Shown: positions 7,089 to 11,458 of the stretch, in pieces
How positions within the stretch are numbered: position 1 is the stretch's first letter
Layout of the letters: each line of letters starts with the position of its first letter
Assembly (NCBI GenBank): GCA_003168375.1
Contig: PMSI01000005.1
Location: forward strand, 1-64,000
Direction: 5' to 3'
From: Vulcanimicrobiota bacterium
Lineage (GTDB): Bacteria; Vulcanimicrobiota; Vulcanimicrobiia; Vulcanimicrobiales; Vulcanimicrobiaceae
Length of the DNA: 64,000 nt
Made by a program: the position numbers and the translations under genes
The notes under the pieces: model-generated
Database searches by the model: none
Told to the model about the DNA's origin: nothing
What the model saw: only the letters and a program-made list of their open reading frames with translations

Positions 7089-7158
7089 TGCGAGGGAACA
7101 CCCAAGCTATACGGAAACCGCGCAACCGGCGCTCGGATAGGTCCGGTTGAGGACCCTG

Positions 7159-7815
7159 ATGAGTGCGCTCGCAGCACCGTTCATCGGAGACCACTACCGC
7201 GTGACCGCACCGGCGACGGTGTCGCACCCTGTTCCGGGGCCCGAGACCTTCGAATCGATCGTCGACGACTACCAGCGCCGGCTCTACGGCTTCGCGCTCC
7301 GCATGACGGGCAACCGGGAAGATGCCGAAGAGATCGTCCAAGACGCCTTCGTTCGGGCCTATCGGGCGCTGGCGAAGATGGACCCGCAGCAGCGGGCCGA
7401 GCTGCGGCTCCAGCCGTGGCTTTACACGATCACCCTGAACGTCACGCGCAACCGCCTGCGCTCGAAGCGGCCGACCAACGTCGCGCTCGATGCGCTCGCC
7501 GATCCCGACGCACTCCTCAACGAGACCCAAGAGGGTCCCGACCAGCCGCAGCACATCGTCGATCGGGCCGCCGACATGGTCCTAGTCGAGCAAGCGCTGC
7601 TCCAGCTGCCGATGCACCTGCGCGCCGCCGCGACGCTACGGTTCATCGAGGGCCGCAGCCACCCTGAGATTGCCGAGATCCTGAACCAGCCGATCGGCAC
7701 GGTGAAATCGCACGTCCACCGAGCGGTGCGCATCCTTCGCCGTATCCTCGGGCCCCAAGTCGGACGGATCGTCCCGAGCGATCGCCCGTCCGCCGCCACC
7801 GAGGAAGAGGAGTGA
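7159..7815 (+). CDS. RNA polymerase sigma factor, ECF type
   Basis: A 218-residue group IV sigma factor. Region 2 spans about residues 31-102: FESIVDDYQRRLYGFALRMT, then the DAEEIVQDAFVRAYRAL core-binding helix and WLYTITLNVTRNRLR for -10 recognition. Region 4 spans about 143-195: LPMHLRAAATLRFIEGRSHPEIAEIL, then the helix-turn-helix QPIGTVKSHVHRAVRILRR for the -35 box. An acidic tail (EEEE) ends the protein. ATG 7159 has GAGG seven bases upstream; a TTG at 7147 is possible. The TGA overlaps the GTG of the next gene, a zinc-finger/methyltransferase fusion that is the likely cognate anti-sigma factor. A GGAAC box at 7095-7099 might be an autoregulatory ECF -35 element, but I cannot show a matching -10. 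Confidence 0.95.
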   Translation: MSALAAPFIGDHYRVTAPATVSHPVPGPETFESIVDDYQRRLYGFALRMTGNREDAEEIVQDAFVRAYRALAKMDPQQRAELRLQPWLYTITLNVTRNRLRSKRPTNVALDALADPDALLNETQEGPDQPQHIVDRAADMVLVEQALLQLPMHLRAAATLRFIEGRSHPEIAEILNQPIGTVKSHVHRAVRILRRILGPQVGRIVPSDRPSAATEEEE

Positions 7816-8555
7816 CCCCATTGCGCTGCTGCGACGTCGAACGTCTTTGGGACGAAATGCGCGAGGGCGTCCAACCGCGCCGCGAGCACGTCCTCGCCCA
7901 CCTGCGGGCGTGTCCGGAATGCCAGGAGATCTACCGGGAGAACGAAGGGATCGCATACTGCCTGACCTGCCTTCCGCTCGTCGATCCGCCGCAGAGCCTC
8001 GTTCCGAAAATCCTCGACCACATCAAAGCGACCGTAAAGATCGCCGCCCCGGACTCGATCGCGAACGTCGAGTCGCCGATCGGCCGGCTCTACGTCGCCT
8101 TCCGCCACACCGGGATCACCGCCGTCGCCCTCGACCGGGGTGAAGGGGACGAACCCGTCCTGGCCAGGCTCCAGCGCCGCCTCGGCCGCGGGCTGATCCC
8201 GTCACAGGCGCCCCAGTGGGTCACCGAGACCGTCGCCGCGTTTTTCCGCACGCATCGTCCCGACCTCGAAAAGGTCGACATCAGCGAGCTCACCCCGTTC
8301 GAGCAGTCGGCGCTCCGGGCCGCGGCGACGATCCCGCCCGGCGAGGTGCGCTCTTACGGCTGGATCGCCGAGAAGCTCGGCCAGCCGACGGCAGCCCGCG
8401 CGGTCGGGCGTGCGATGGCGCGCAATCCTGTTCCATTGCTCTACCCGTGCCATCGCGTCGTCGACGCGACCGGCGCCCTGCACCAGTACGCCTACGGTGT
8501 CGAAGTCAAAGCGCGAATCCTCGCCCTGGAGGGGTATCACCCGGTTCGCCGCTGA
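7812..8555 (+). CDS. Anti-sigma-type zinc finger fused to O6-alkylguanine-DNA methyltransferase
   Basis: A 247-residue two-domain protein. Residues 1-60 match the zinc-binding anti-sigma (ZAS) pattern: C6/C7, then H30-x3-C34-x2-C37 (HLRACPEC), with C50 and C53 just after. The C-terminal half is a 6-O-methylguanine methyltransferase. Residues 85-150 form the N-terminal ribonuclease-H-like part (VESPIGRLYVAF). Residues 161-240 form the active domain with PPGEVRSYGWIA, RAVGRAMARNPVPLLYPCHRVV and ALEG. The acceptor cysteine is present (C213 in PCHR), so it is not an alkyltransferase-like protein with Trp at that place. Known: MGMT/Ogt transfers the alkyl group irreversibly to this Cys; ZAS domains hold ECF sigma factors. 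Inferred: alkylation of C213 could release the overlapping sigma factor. The GTG start overlaps its stop. Confidence 0.85.
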   Translation: MTPLRCCDVERLWDEMREGVQPRREHVLAHLRACPECQEIYRENEGIAYCLTCLPLVDPPQSLVPKILDHIKATVKIAAPDSIANVESPIGRLYVAFRHTGITAVALDRGEGDEPVLARLQRRLGRGLIPSQAPQWVTETVAAFFRTHRPDLEKVDISELTPFEQSALRAAATIPPGEVRSYGWIAEKLGQPTAARAVGRAMARNPVPLLYPCHRVVDATGALHQYAYGVEVKARILALEGYHPVRR

Positions 8556-8666
8556 GCGGACAATCGGTTCGCGAGTTCCGGAAGGAGAACGCGCGAAGCG
8601 CTCGCGAAAGCGGGGCTCACGATACGTCCGCGGACCCTTCAGACGAGAGATCAGCGAAGGCTAACA
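8556..8666 (+). ncRNA. Upstream structured segment of candidate RNA
   Basis: This segment has strong local complementarity: TTCGCGAG (8567-8574) with CTCGCGAA (8601-8608), a GTTC/GAAC hairpin capped by CCGGAAGG, a GCGC-GAA-GCGC hairpin, a GTCCGCGGAC palindrome and CCTTC (8636-8640) with GAAGG (8656-8660). The first eight bases, GCGGACAA, can also pair with TTGTCCGC at 8775-8782. No convincing reading frame covers it. It is either the 5' part of one longer RNA or a separate leader. Confidence 0.5.
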
Positions 8667-8783
8667 GGCGGACAAGAGGAGGTGGTCATCGTTACTAGCG
8701 ACAGTCCCAATCAATGTCTCACGATGATCGGAGGGCTCCGGACGTAAGTCCGGTCTCCGCAAACCGAAGAACCTTTGTCCGCC
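8667..8783 (+). ncRNA. Candidate structured RNA, three-way junction, unknown family
   Basis: Three helices fit one fold. P1 pairs GGCGGACAA (8667-8675) with TTGTCCGCC (8775-8783). P2 pairs GGTCATCGT (8682-8690 area) with ACGATGATC, enclosing an inner GACA/TGTC helix. P3 pairs CGGAG and CTCCGGAC with GTCCGG and CTCCG around a GTAA tetraloop. The junction strands are purine-rich. It ends directly in a rho-independent terminator and lies between the methyltransferase fusion and pcp. It lacks the T-arm of a tRNA, the SRP symmetric loop, and RNase P or tmRNA signatures. It could be a stand-alone small RNA, a 3'-UTR-derived RNA of the sigma operon, or a leader element controlling pcp. Confidence 0.6.
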
Positions 8784-8808
8784 GCCCCGTTCGGGGGCGG
8801 CTTTTTTT
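8781..8808 (+). terminator. Rho-independent terminator
   Basis: GCCGCCCC (8781-8788) pairs with GGGGCGGC (8794-8801) around a GTTCG loop, followed by seven Ts. Its first three bases are also the last three of helix P1 of the candidate RNA, so the two helices compete at that point. It ends transcription of the sigma operon or of the RNA. The 54 bases after it, up to pcp, show no further structure. Confidence 0.9.
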
Positions 8809-8862
8809 GTCCGGAGATTCTCTCAGAGGTCCCTTGCCTCAGCCGCAGAAAACCTGCGGTTC

Positions 8863-9561
8863 GTGTCCCGGAAGGTTCTGCTGACCGGTTTCGAGCCGTT
8901 CGGACCCCACCTCGTGAACCCCAGCGAACTGCTCGCGCGCAGTCTCGAAGGCCGGATCGTCGGCGGATGCGTGGTCGGCGTGCGCGTGTTTCCGGTCGAG
9001 ACGCGGACGCTGCAAGACCGCATCGAGGCGGCGCTCCGCGAGGAGCAGCCCGCGTTCGTCATCGGCGTCGGCCTCGCGGCCGGCCGCGCGGCGCTCGGTC
9101 TCGAGCGGGTTGCGGTGAACGTGCTCGACTTTGACATTCCGGACGCAGTCGGGACGATGCGCAAGAACGACCCCGTGCAGCGCGGCGGACCGGACGGACG
9201 GCTTGCGACGTTACCGCTGAACGAGATCGTCGCCGCCTGGGGTGAGGCCGGCGTCCCCGGCTATGTCTCGGACAGTGCCGGCACGTATCTCTGCAATCAG
9301 TGGCTGTATGAAGCTCTGGCGCTCACCGCGAACGCCGCGCCGCCGATCCCCACCGGATTCGTCCACGTCCCGGTGCTGCCGGCGCAGGCAGTGCAGCTCG
9401 GCGCCGACCGGACGCCATCGATGACCCTCGATCTCATGCGGCGCGGCCTCGAGACGGCGATCGAAACGATCGCGCTGCTGCTCGACACCAAGCCGACGCC
9501 ATCGCAGCGGGCGGGCGACAAGCTTTGGTTCCCCCGCGGACTACGAGAAGTTGAACGATAA
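8863..9561 (+). CDS. pcp: Pyrrolidone-carboxylate peptidase
   Basis: A cysteine peptidase (family C15) that removes N-terminal pyroglutamate from peptides, in the cytoplasm. At 232 residues it is slightly longer than the usual 215. It starts with the family signature VLLTGFEPFG. The catalytic triad is visible: E81 in GLERVAVNVLDF, C144 in SAGTYLCNQ and H168 in GFVHVPVLP. The start is GTG. Its last 11 bases overlap the TTG of the PHP gene, so the two may be co-translated. It lies directly behind the structured RNA and terminator, so leader control is possible. Confidence 0.93.
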   Translation: MSRKVLLTGFEPFGPHLVNPSELLARSLEGRIVGGCVVGVRVFPVETRTLQDRIEAALREEQPAFVIGVGLAAGRAALGLERVAVNVLDFDIPDAVGTMRKNDPVQRGGPDGRLATLPLNEIVAAWGEAGVPGYVSDSAGTYLCNQWLYEALALTANAAPPIPTGFVHVPVLPAQAVQLGADRTPSMTLDLMRRGLETAIETIALLLDTKPTPSQRAGDKLWFPRGLREVER

Positions 9562-11458
9562 CAACGAGCGCGACCCGCGCCTCTACGCAATCCCCGACAC
9601 GCACGGTCACGCCAAAGGCGAGCACAAGCCCTACCTCGAGGAGCGTCCGCTTCCGCTGACCGCACGGATGCTGTTCCTGTGGTTCTACCATGCTTGCCGG
9701 CGTGGTTTTCCGCGCTTCCTGATGGTCGCGGATCATATGAACTACCTGACCTTCGAAGACCCGGCCGCGGTGAACCTCGTGCGCCGCGCACTCAAGCTCG
9801 CGCAGGCCGGCGATCTGTACGGGGCCGCCGAGACCGCGAACGTCGACGTGGGGCACGCGGCGGTCGTGAGCGAGGGGCTGCGCCGCGGCATGCGCTATTC
9901 GATCGGCGCCGAGGTCGACAACGACCCGCGTTCGCGTCCTGACGCGCAGAACATCGTCGACGCGATGCGGCCCGACGGCATCGTGCGCTCGGTGCACTTC
10001 ATCCCGATCACGCATCCGGTTCACGGCGAGAACTGGCCGTGGCCGTTCGACAATCCCGAGTTCAGCGATCTCTTCGACGTGGTCGGAACCGAGCAGACGT
10101 GGGAGCTGTACGTCACCGTGCTCGTCGATGCGATCGAACGGCTCCCCGGCCACATCATCGGCCACTTCTTCGTCCCGGCCGTGTTCGGCCACTGGCCCGA
10201 CGACGCCAAACTCAGCGAGTACGAGGACCGCGTCCTCGCCGCCGCCGCCGCGCGCGGCATGGCGGTCGAGTTCAACTCGCGCTTCTTTTACCGCGACCAC
10301 GACGTCGAGGAGAAAGACCGCTACCTCGACGCCAACAAGCGGTTCTTGCGCAAGGCGAAGGAACGCGGCGTCGCGATTGCGATCGGTTCCGACGCGCACT
10401 CGCCGAAGGATCAGGGCGGCGCGTTCGACGTCGTGCTGCACGTGCTGGACGAGCTCGACATCAACGAGATCGTCTTCCCGATGGGCGGCGTCCTGCGCCG
10501 CGTCGCGCTCCGCGTGGTGCGAGAGCCCGAACCCGAGCCCGTCCCCGAACCCGCTCCGCCCGAGCCGCAGAAGACCGACGAGGTCGCGCCGGAACCGGCG
10601 AAGCAAGTTCGCAAGGCCCGCGCAACCGCGAAGGCGGCCCGGCCCCCGCAGACCTCTCCGGAGCGCCCGCCGGAACGTCCCCAGACCTCGAGCCCTCCTC
10701 CGGCCCCGGCACAGCAGGCCGAGGCGCAGCAGCCCGCATCCGAGCCGGCGAGCCTCGACCCGGCTCCCGAGCCGCCCAAGAAACCGGCCCCCAAGAAAAA
10801 GCCGGCGCCTCCGAGCACCGCCGAGGCGCCTGTACCCGAACCGGTCGCGGTAAAGCCCCCGGCTCCCGCAAAGCCTCCGGCTCCCGCAAAGCCCCCGGCT
10901 CCCGTAAAAGCCGCGGCGCCCGCGAAAGCCAAAGCCGCCGCACCCATCGCGAAGCCCGTCGCGAAGCCCGTCGCGAAGCCCGTCGCGAAGCCCGTCGCGA
11001 AGCCGGTCGCGAAGCCGGTCACAAAGCCCGTCGCGAAACCGGTCGCGAAGCCCGCCGCCAAGGCTGCTCCCGCGAAGGCGGCTGCTGCCAAACCGGTGGC
11101 AAAAGCCGCTGCGAAGACCCCGCCCAAGGCGGCGAGCGCACGGCATTCGCCGGCGAAGCCGGCTCACGCCAAGAAAGCCACGCCGGCCAAGGCCGGCTCC
11201 AAAAAGGCCATGCCGGCGAAGGCGGCCGCCCAAAAGGCGAGTCCGGCCCGTCCGGCGTCGAAGAAGTCCGCACCGGCCAGGAAGGCCGCAGCGGCGAAAA
11301 AGCCGATGCCGAAGAAGTCGGCGCCGGCGCGCGCGGTCGGCAAGAAGGCCGCGCCGAAGAAGGTCGCCACGAAAAAAGCTCCGGCGCGCGGTGCGCCGGC
11401 CCGCAAAGCGGCCACAAAGAAAACGACGGCGAAAAAGACGGCGGCCAAGCGCCGCTAG
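9551..11458 (+). CDS. PHP-domain protein with histone-H1-like basic tail
   Basis: A 635-residue fusion. Residues 1-320 are a PHP-type metal-dependent phosphoesterase: DTHGHAKGEH near the start, FLMVADHMNYL, GHFFVPAVFGHWP and IAIGSDAHSPKDQ supply the expected His/Asp metal ligands. Residues about 323-430 are Pro/Glu-rich. From about 434 to the end the protein is almost only Lys, Ala and Pro, with KPPAPA and KPVA repeats and an end rich in KKAP and KKTA, like bacterial histone-H1-like proteins and AlgP. A tail of this kind usually binds DNA or RNA. Inference: the phosphoesterase is tethered to nucleic acid. The TTG start is the only one before the first metal-binding motif. Confidence 0.8.
   Translation: MNDNNERDPRLYAIPDTHGHAKGEHKPYLEERPLPLTARMLFLWFYHACRRGFPRFLMVADHMNYLTFEDPAAVNLVRRALKLAQAGDLYGAAETANVDVGHAAVVSEGLRRGMRYSIGAEVDNDPRSRPDAQNIVDAMRPDGIVRSVHFIPITHPVHGENWPWPFDNPEFSDLFDVVGTEQTWELYVTVLVDAIERLPGHIIGHFFVPAVFGHWPDDAKLSEYEDRVLAAAAARGMAVEFNSRFFYRDHDVEEKDRYLDANKRFLRKAKERGVAIAIGSDAHSPKDQGGAFDVVLHVLDELDINEIVFPMGGVLRRVALRVVREPEPEPVPEPAPPEPQKTDEVAPEPAKQVRKARATAKAARPPQTSPERPPERPQTSSPPPAPAQQAEAQQPASEPASLDPAPEPPKKPAPKKKPAPPSTAEAPVPEPVAVKPPAPAKPPAPAKPPAPVKAAAPAKAKAAAPIAKPVAKPVAKPVAKPVAKPVAKPVTKPVAKPVAKPAAKAAPAKAAAAKPVAKAAAKTPPKAASARHSPAKPAHAKKATPAKAGSKKAMPAKAAAQKASPARPASKKSAPARKAAAAKKPMPKKSAPARAVGKKAAPKKVATKKAPARGAPARKAATKKTTAKKTAAKRR
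10852..11055 (+). repeat. Tandem coding repeats (KPPAPA and KPVA units)
   Basis: Three 18-bp units encoding KPPAPA begin near 10852. About nine 12-bp units of the form GCGAAGCCCGTC, encoding KPVA, lie at about 10948-11055. The units are nearly identical at DNA level, so copy number probably varies between strains. They have no spacers and are not CRISPR. Confidence 0.85.

Follow-up and report, generated by a model that had tools for sequence, protein, structure and literature searches.

We find that an ECF sigma factor gene is followed by a gene that fuses a zinc anti-sigma (ZAS) domain to an O6-methylguanine-DNA methyltransferase (MGMT). The two lie at 7159-8555 of the window, which is the whole 64,000-nucleotide stretch of contig PMSI01000005.1 that was analysed, and strong sequence evidence supports them as a cognate sigma/anti-sigma pair in one operon. 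The explanation that we favour, with real but limited confidence, is that the N-terminal domain works as a zinc anti-sigma factor of the CHCC type in a soluble protein, that the suicide repair enzyme behind it acts as the sensor, and that the sigma factor would be released upon alkylation of the acceptor cysteine, C213. We infer alkylation as the release signal from the company that this sigma lineage keeps, as set out below.

The ECF sigma factor gene (7159-7815, + strand, 218 aa) showed Pfam matches to sigma-70 region 2 (Sigma70_r2, E 3.7e-17) and region 4 (Sigma70_r4_2, E 6.2e-14), and its TIGR02937 match lies above the cut-off of that model. Since sigma2 and sigma4 are present without sigma3, the product is an ECF factor. 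SigW, chain A of the SigW/RsiW complex 5wuq, is its nearest solved chain (E 3.7e-24). The fusion gene (7812-8555, + strand) reads from a GTG at 7812 and encodes 247 aa; residues are numbered from this GTG throughout. Pfam, for the sigma and MGMT domains, and 93 full-length relatives in one order confirm the sigma gene and the zinc anti-sigma/MGMT fusion that the preliminary description had placed at 7159-8555. Codon 4 of the window fusion (TTG, 7821) is aligned to the start methionine of 91 of the 93 relatives, and GAGGAG lies 8 nt upstream of it, so the true start is probably TTG 7821, not GTG 7812. In that case the window genes may not overlap, the fusion gene beginning 5 nt past the stop codon of the sigma gene. 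Thus, the GTGA overlap described earlier perhaps fails in the window itself, but an overlap does hold in most relatives, where it is commonly 14 nt.

Performing a genome-wide search in 149 genomes of the phylum Eremiobacterota (WPS-2), we recovered full-length fusions from all over a single order of soil bacteria (families f1 and f2); beyond that order, these genomes yielded plain MGMTs only and no fusion. We collected 99 loci, 93 of them with at least 100 bp of upstream sequence, and in each of these 93 the fusion is immediately preceded by the cognate sigma gene, whose products are 72-98% identical. A sigma gene is absent from five loci, all of which stop at a contig edge. The 93 full-length fusions are 48-97% identical. 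A pattern scan of 84,980 species, whose reach is close relatives only, returned 55 loci, all assignable to this Eremiobacterota/WPS-2 order and each with a sigma gene; the MGMT was complete in 54, which are largely the same contigs as the 93, and cut by a contig end in one. Outside the order, 32 genomes contained no close homologue of the sigma factor, the best match reaching 37%. The order members that lack the fusion, all incomplete genomes (G064, G069, G115, G049 and G124), lack the sigma factor too (best 40%). A cognate pair had been called likely beforehand. That expectation is strengthened by the finding that ZAS-MGMT fusions always stand beside an ECF sigma gene where upstream sequence is available (93/93 loci, and 54/54 full-length loci of the scan), and by the separate matches of the sigma factor and the ZAS domain to chains A and C of one complex, 5wuq.

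A putative autoregulatory ECF promoter (7121-7158, + strand) precedes the sigma gene, with GCGCAACCGG as the -35-like element and CCGGTT (7143-7148) as the -10-like element, the ATG following 10 nt on. The promoter-like sequence takes the form TGAAACC-N16/17-GGTC and then ATG, and we take its -35 TGAAAC to resemble that of SigW. Across the loci, [CT]G[AC]AAC[CT]-N-GGT with ECF-like spacing occurred directly upstream of the sigma gene in 75 of 89, compared with 0.44 in shuffles, and usually 9-14 nt ahead of the sigma ATG. A genus-specific form was found once per genome, always at this locus, in 9/11 genomes. When 99 family genomes were searched with two strict forms extended to the start codon, 37 matches appeared, 25 of them at the sigma gene, against 3 in total for the controls; the other 12 matches in these 99 genomes marked no recurrent recognisable gene set. 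A looser motif without the start codon gave many scattered matches, near chance. Among its recurrent matches, one resembles a CIRCE-type repeat before groES, and a pirin-like and a thioredoxin-like gene appeared once each. The motif searches found no regulon of other alkylation-repair genes, and no other repair genes were seen in the operon, whose conserved neighbours are a PHP-domain gene and a pyroglutamyl peptidase gene. The footprint is strong, and as we saw it recur at no gene other than the sigma gene, it suggests that the sigma operon is autoregulated, the promoter activity being presumed from that footprint. Besides, only some 10 nt separate the -10-like element from the sigma ATG in nearly all loci (the stretch 7144-7161 in the window), so that the sigma mRNA probably has no leader or almost none.

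Downstream of the fusion we noticed a conserved element (8626-8747, + strand) with a nested hairpin (8626-8631/8668-8673 and 8636-8640/8656-8660), an extended Shine-Dalgarno sequence (8677-8688, + strand) and a small ORF of 21 codons (8682-8747, + strand). The element is present in 43 loci, 60-330 bp past the fusion gene, and a terminator-like stem follows it; in the window, an intrinsic-terminator-like stem-loop with a T-run was read directly at 8782-8809 (+ strand). Its helix shows compensatory changes among loci. The ORF has 18-26 codons, follows V[VI]IV[ST]SDS...TMIGGAxT and changes length by whole codons. Searching Rfam, we found no family that matches the element. The pyroglutamyl peptidase gene (8863-9561) lies directly downstream and is a neighbour in 44 loci. 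The PHP-domain protein (9551-11458), kept downstream in most loci, has a long Ala/Lys/Pro-rich, histone-H1-like C-terminal tail with PVAKPVAKPVAK repeats.

The ZAS domain (7821-8051, + strand) covers residues about 4-80 and is supported by its invariant ligands and its RsiW profile match. The preliminary description had proposed a zinc site of C6/C7, H30, C34 and C37. C6 (7827-7829), H30 (7899-7901), C34 (7911-7913) and C37 (7920-7922; all + strand) are conserved in 93/93, but C7 is not, being replaced by Arg in 67/93 relatives; C6 is therefore the ligand. W13, D14 and H70 are likewise invariant in the 93 full-length fusions, and the four ligands all fall within the 12 invariant columns of an alignment of 49 ZAS domains. 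A ZAS domain is defined by HxxxCxxC and a Cys or His 23-26 residues upstream (PMC4960319), and the fusion has this arrangement with a C6-to-H30 spacing of 24. In RsiW, the zinc ligands are C3, H30, C34 and C37 (PMC5358783).

Pfam called no domain in the N-terminal region of the window protein itself. The zf-HC2 model matched 6/11 family members, and the NCBIfam anti-sigma and RsrA models matched 11/11 with scores below their curated cut-offs, the window protein weakly. A family profile of the N-terminal domain matched RsiW (5wuq chain C) with E 4.7e-5, which together with the NCBIfam matches gives sequence kinship to a known ZAS protein. The AF2 model, of moderate confidence here, predicts four helices in the expected order (residues 6-17, 24-33, 35-52 and 63-74/78), with pLDDT 43-68 in the full model and 73 for the domain alone. 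Its top fold match is RsiW, but weak (E 1.1; Z 5.0).

The zinc site could itself be the sensor, responding to thiol/oxidative or electrophile stress like RsrA, or becoming methylated like the zinc-thiolate of N-Ada, while the MGMT would be expressed along with it as cargo and repair DNA during that stress. The CHCC-type ZAS is indeed shared with RsrA, and most relatives have an additional CxxC (C50 in 77/93 and C53 in 74/93). However, RsiW is the closest relative and its CHCC motif does not respond to redox; of the four flanking residues that are linked to redox sensitivity in RsrA (PMC5358783), three are absent from the fusion in our own alignment. The C50/C53 pair is also missing from 20 loci. 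As the RsiW motif does not respond to redox and the CxxC is not universal, we lowered this explanation, which moreover leaves the MGMT and Ada_Zn domains on a related sigma lineage unexplained, and we consider it unlikely.

The MGMT domain (8052-8552, + strand; residues about 81-247) is supported by conserved residues and PDB fold matches. It is complete and keeps C213 in PCHR as the acceptor cysteine (codon 8448-8450, + strand; invariant in 93/93), just as had been read at first sight. The PF01035 MGMT DNA-binding domain spans residues 162-241 (E 2.5e-29); Y182, N205, P212, H214, R215 and E240 are invariant along with C213 in the 93 fusions, and R196 is also conserved. The AF2 model gives 10-residue block means of pLDDT 80-98 from residue 81 onward, and the fold matches Ogt, Ada-C and human MGMT, with Foldseek E down to 7.8e-13. 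The domain thus has the PCHR acceptor, the catalytic residues and the fold of an O6-alkylguanine-DNA alkyltransferase, and its invariant catalytic residues indicate that it is probably catalytically competent. In the near-complete genomes G102 (98%) and G090 (99%), the fusion is the sole detectable MGMT and no Ada_Zn was found, which also makes it probable that the domain works as an enzyme. Many fusion-bearing genomes have an ordinary Ogt or Ada as well. We considered the fusion as a replacement of Ada and rejected this, because Ada_Zn coexists with it in some genomes.

Two pocket positions are also conserved, H224 in 92/93 and Y228 in 91/93. We take them, as a lead only, to be the positions of Gly156 and Gly160 of human MGMT, where E. 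coli Ada has bulkier residues too. This suggests, again as a lead, a methyl-restricted pocket, and the substrate range may be narrow.

The MGMT domain might also report damage without any transfer, by binding damaged DNA and so pulling the fusion off the sigma factor or blocking it sterically. MGMT binds DNA directly, and the DNA-binding and base-flipping residues are all conserved. Yet binding alone does not require C213, which is invariant in 93/93; ATL proteins are without the acceptor Cys. We hold release by binding alone to be improbable, and keep to alkylation of C213 as the favoured trigger.

The same genomes often have a second operon with a different ECF sigma factor, 38-48% identical, whose partner protein consists of a short N-terminal helix, an MGMT domain and a C-terminal Ada_Zn domain. 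We found this sister operon in Eremiobacterota (L135-L146 and L148), Streptomyces (L155) and Nonomuraea (L156). The short helix of these proteins resembles anti-sigma helix 4. In Streptomyces (L155, 2504-3346), the C-terminal motif of MGMT survives as PCHR only and a separate MGMT gene follows; this protein is possibly a sensor without repair. In the MGMT tree, the fusion, the MGMT-Ada_Zn proteins and an orphan MGMT (L234) group together versus Ogt and Ada (branch support 95/80), and in the sigma tree both MGMT-linked groups fall on one side versus other ECF factors (96/99), both trees having long branches, limited sampling and an assumed root. The orphan (L234, 1936-2574; class f3) has neither a sigma gene nor Ada_Zn adjoining.

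Ada_Zn is a sensor of methyl phosphotriesters, so two alkylation-reactive domains are tied to one sigma lineage. The presence of Ada's alkyl-phosphotriester sensor in the sister system points to alkylation as the signal. The MGMT-Ada_Zn systems have no ZAS bundle, so a sigma factor and an MGMT can be associated without a ZAS domain. Of group ECF122, the entry in PMC8999054 (citing Casas-Pastor 2021) gives a neighbouring 6-O-methylguanine DNA methyltransferase and no anti-sigma factor, and lists the mechanism as unknown. The sister sigma-MGMT-Ada_Zn operons are probably this group. As far as that entry describes it, ECF122 resembles the window pair in having an ECF sigma factor with a conserved MGMT neighbour, which we find encoded beside the sigma factor in 93/93 loci. 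The trait of having no cognate anti-sigma factor is not shared, since the window MGMT has a fused ZAS; the probable ECF122 members carry MGMT-Ada_Zn with a short helix, whereas in the window protein the ZAS domain is complete and Ada_Zn is lacking. If the sister operons are indeed ECF122, the window system would represent one branch of an older link between ECF sigma factors and MGMT.

The anti-sigma domain might instead answer to another signal, such as proteolysis or another partner, and the MGMT might be a housekeeping enzyme that merely travels with it. Proteolysis can control ChrR- and RsiW-type anti-sigma factors, but the fusion is fixed across the order, and in the sister sigma lineage MGMT is fused to another alkylation sensor domain, which makes a constitutive tether of this kind very improbable. 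There is next to no chance that we are dealing with a fortuitous fusion in which the zinc finger is dead and the adjacent sigma gene unrelated, an alternative that the preliminary description had raised and that the failure of Pfam to recognise the window's N-terminal domain might seem to favour, as the ligands (93/93), the sigma linkage (93/93), the RsiW profile match and the conserved promoter rule it out and, on these comparisons, confirm the fusion as real.

In the favoured explanation, the ZAS domain would keep the ECF sigma factor inactive in an undamaged cell, like RsiW with SigW. Repair of O6-alkylguanine, a mutagenic lesion, by the MGMT domain would alkylate C213 irreversibly. AGTs become unstable upon alkylation and are degraded (PMC4605297), and the simplest model is that the intact fusion holds the sigma factor and the alkylated fusion drops it; a loss of stability once C213 is alkylated, or else engagement of the fusion on damaged DNA, would free the sigma factor. 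The free sigma factor would transcribe its own operon, giving more sigma factor and fresh fusion protein. The latter would repair DNA and, once the damage is gone, re-capture the sigma factor and reset the switch.

If this is true, the act of repair itself reports damage and turns on more repair enzyme. The logic would be stoichiometric, with the unreacted enzyme as the repressor, so that the switch would directly gauge and refill the pool of unreacted repair enzyme, and a mechanism would be supplied for ECF122. We see an even chance for the wider claim that one soluble protein is repair enzyme, irreversible sensor and anti-sigma factor with its own operon as the main or only target, the sigma-MGMT-Ada_Zn systems of Actinobacteria being a sister branch of an old, overlooked alternative to Ada.

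To our knowledge, the known bacterial alkylation responses operate via Ada-type activators. Ada resembles the fusion in uniting a repair enzyme and a damage sensor in one protein, with the MGMT C-terminal, but it turns into an activator upon methylation of N-Ada, whereas the fusion would act by sigma release. We found no match to Ada_Zn (PF02805) or to an AraC-type HTH within the 247-aa fusion. Thus, the suggestion that the logic differs from Ada stands as far as the architecture goes, but the system is not an isolated one, given the sigma-MGMT-Ada_Zn operons and the MGMT neighbour noted in the ECF122 entry (PMC8999054). Among anti-sigma factors, SigW/RsiW of Bacillus subtilis (5wuq; PMC5358783) gives the best solved sequence matches for both partners, and RsiW shares the CHCC ligands at near-identical positions and has the four-helix anti-sigma domain that the model predicts for the fusion. 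RsiW is membrane-bound and subject to intramembrane proteolysis, whereas the fusion is predicted to be soluble with MGMT as its second domain. RsrA is likewise a soluble ZAS anti-sigma factor, but it is single-domain and senses disulfide stress. ChrR (ZAS plus cupin; partner of RpoE in Rhodobacter; ECF11) is a soluble ZAS protein with a C-terminal sensor domain, but its ligands are HHCC, the sensor is a cupin and the signal is singlet oxygen. We found no description of a ZAS-MGMT fusion in the papers that we searched, and when the alkyltransferase family was reviewed in 2023, several fusions were named but never sigma factors (PMC10779285). A soluble ZAS with a sensor domain (ChrR) and ECF factors with an MGMT neighbour (ECF122) are already known; a repair enzyme that serves as an anti-sigma factor would be new.
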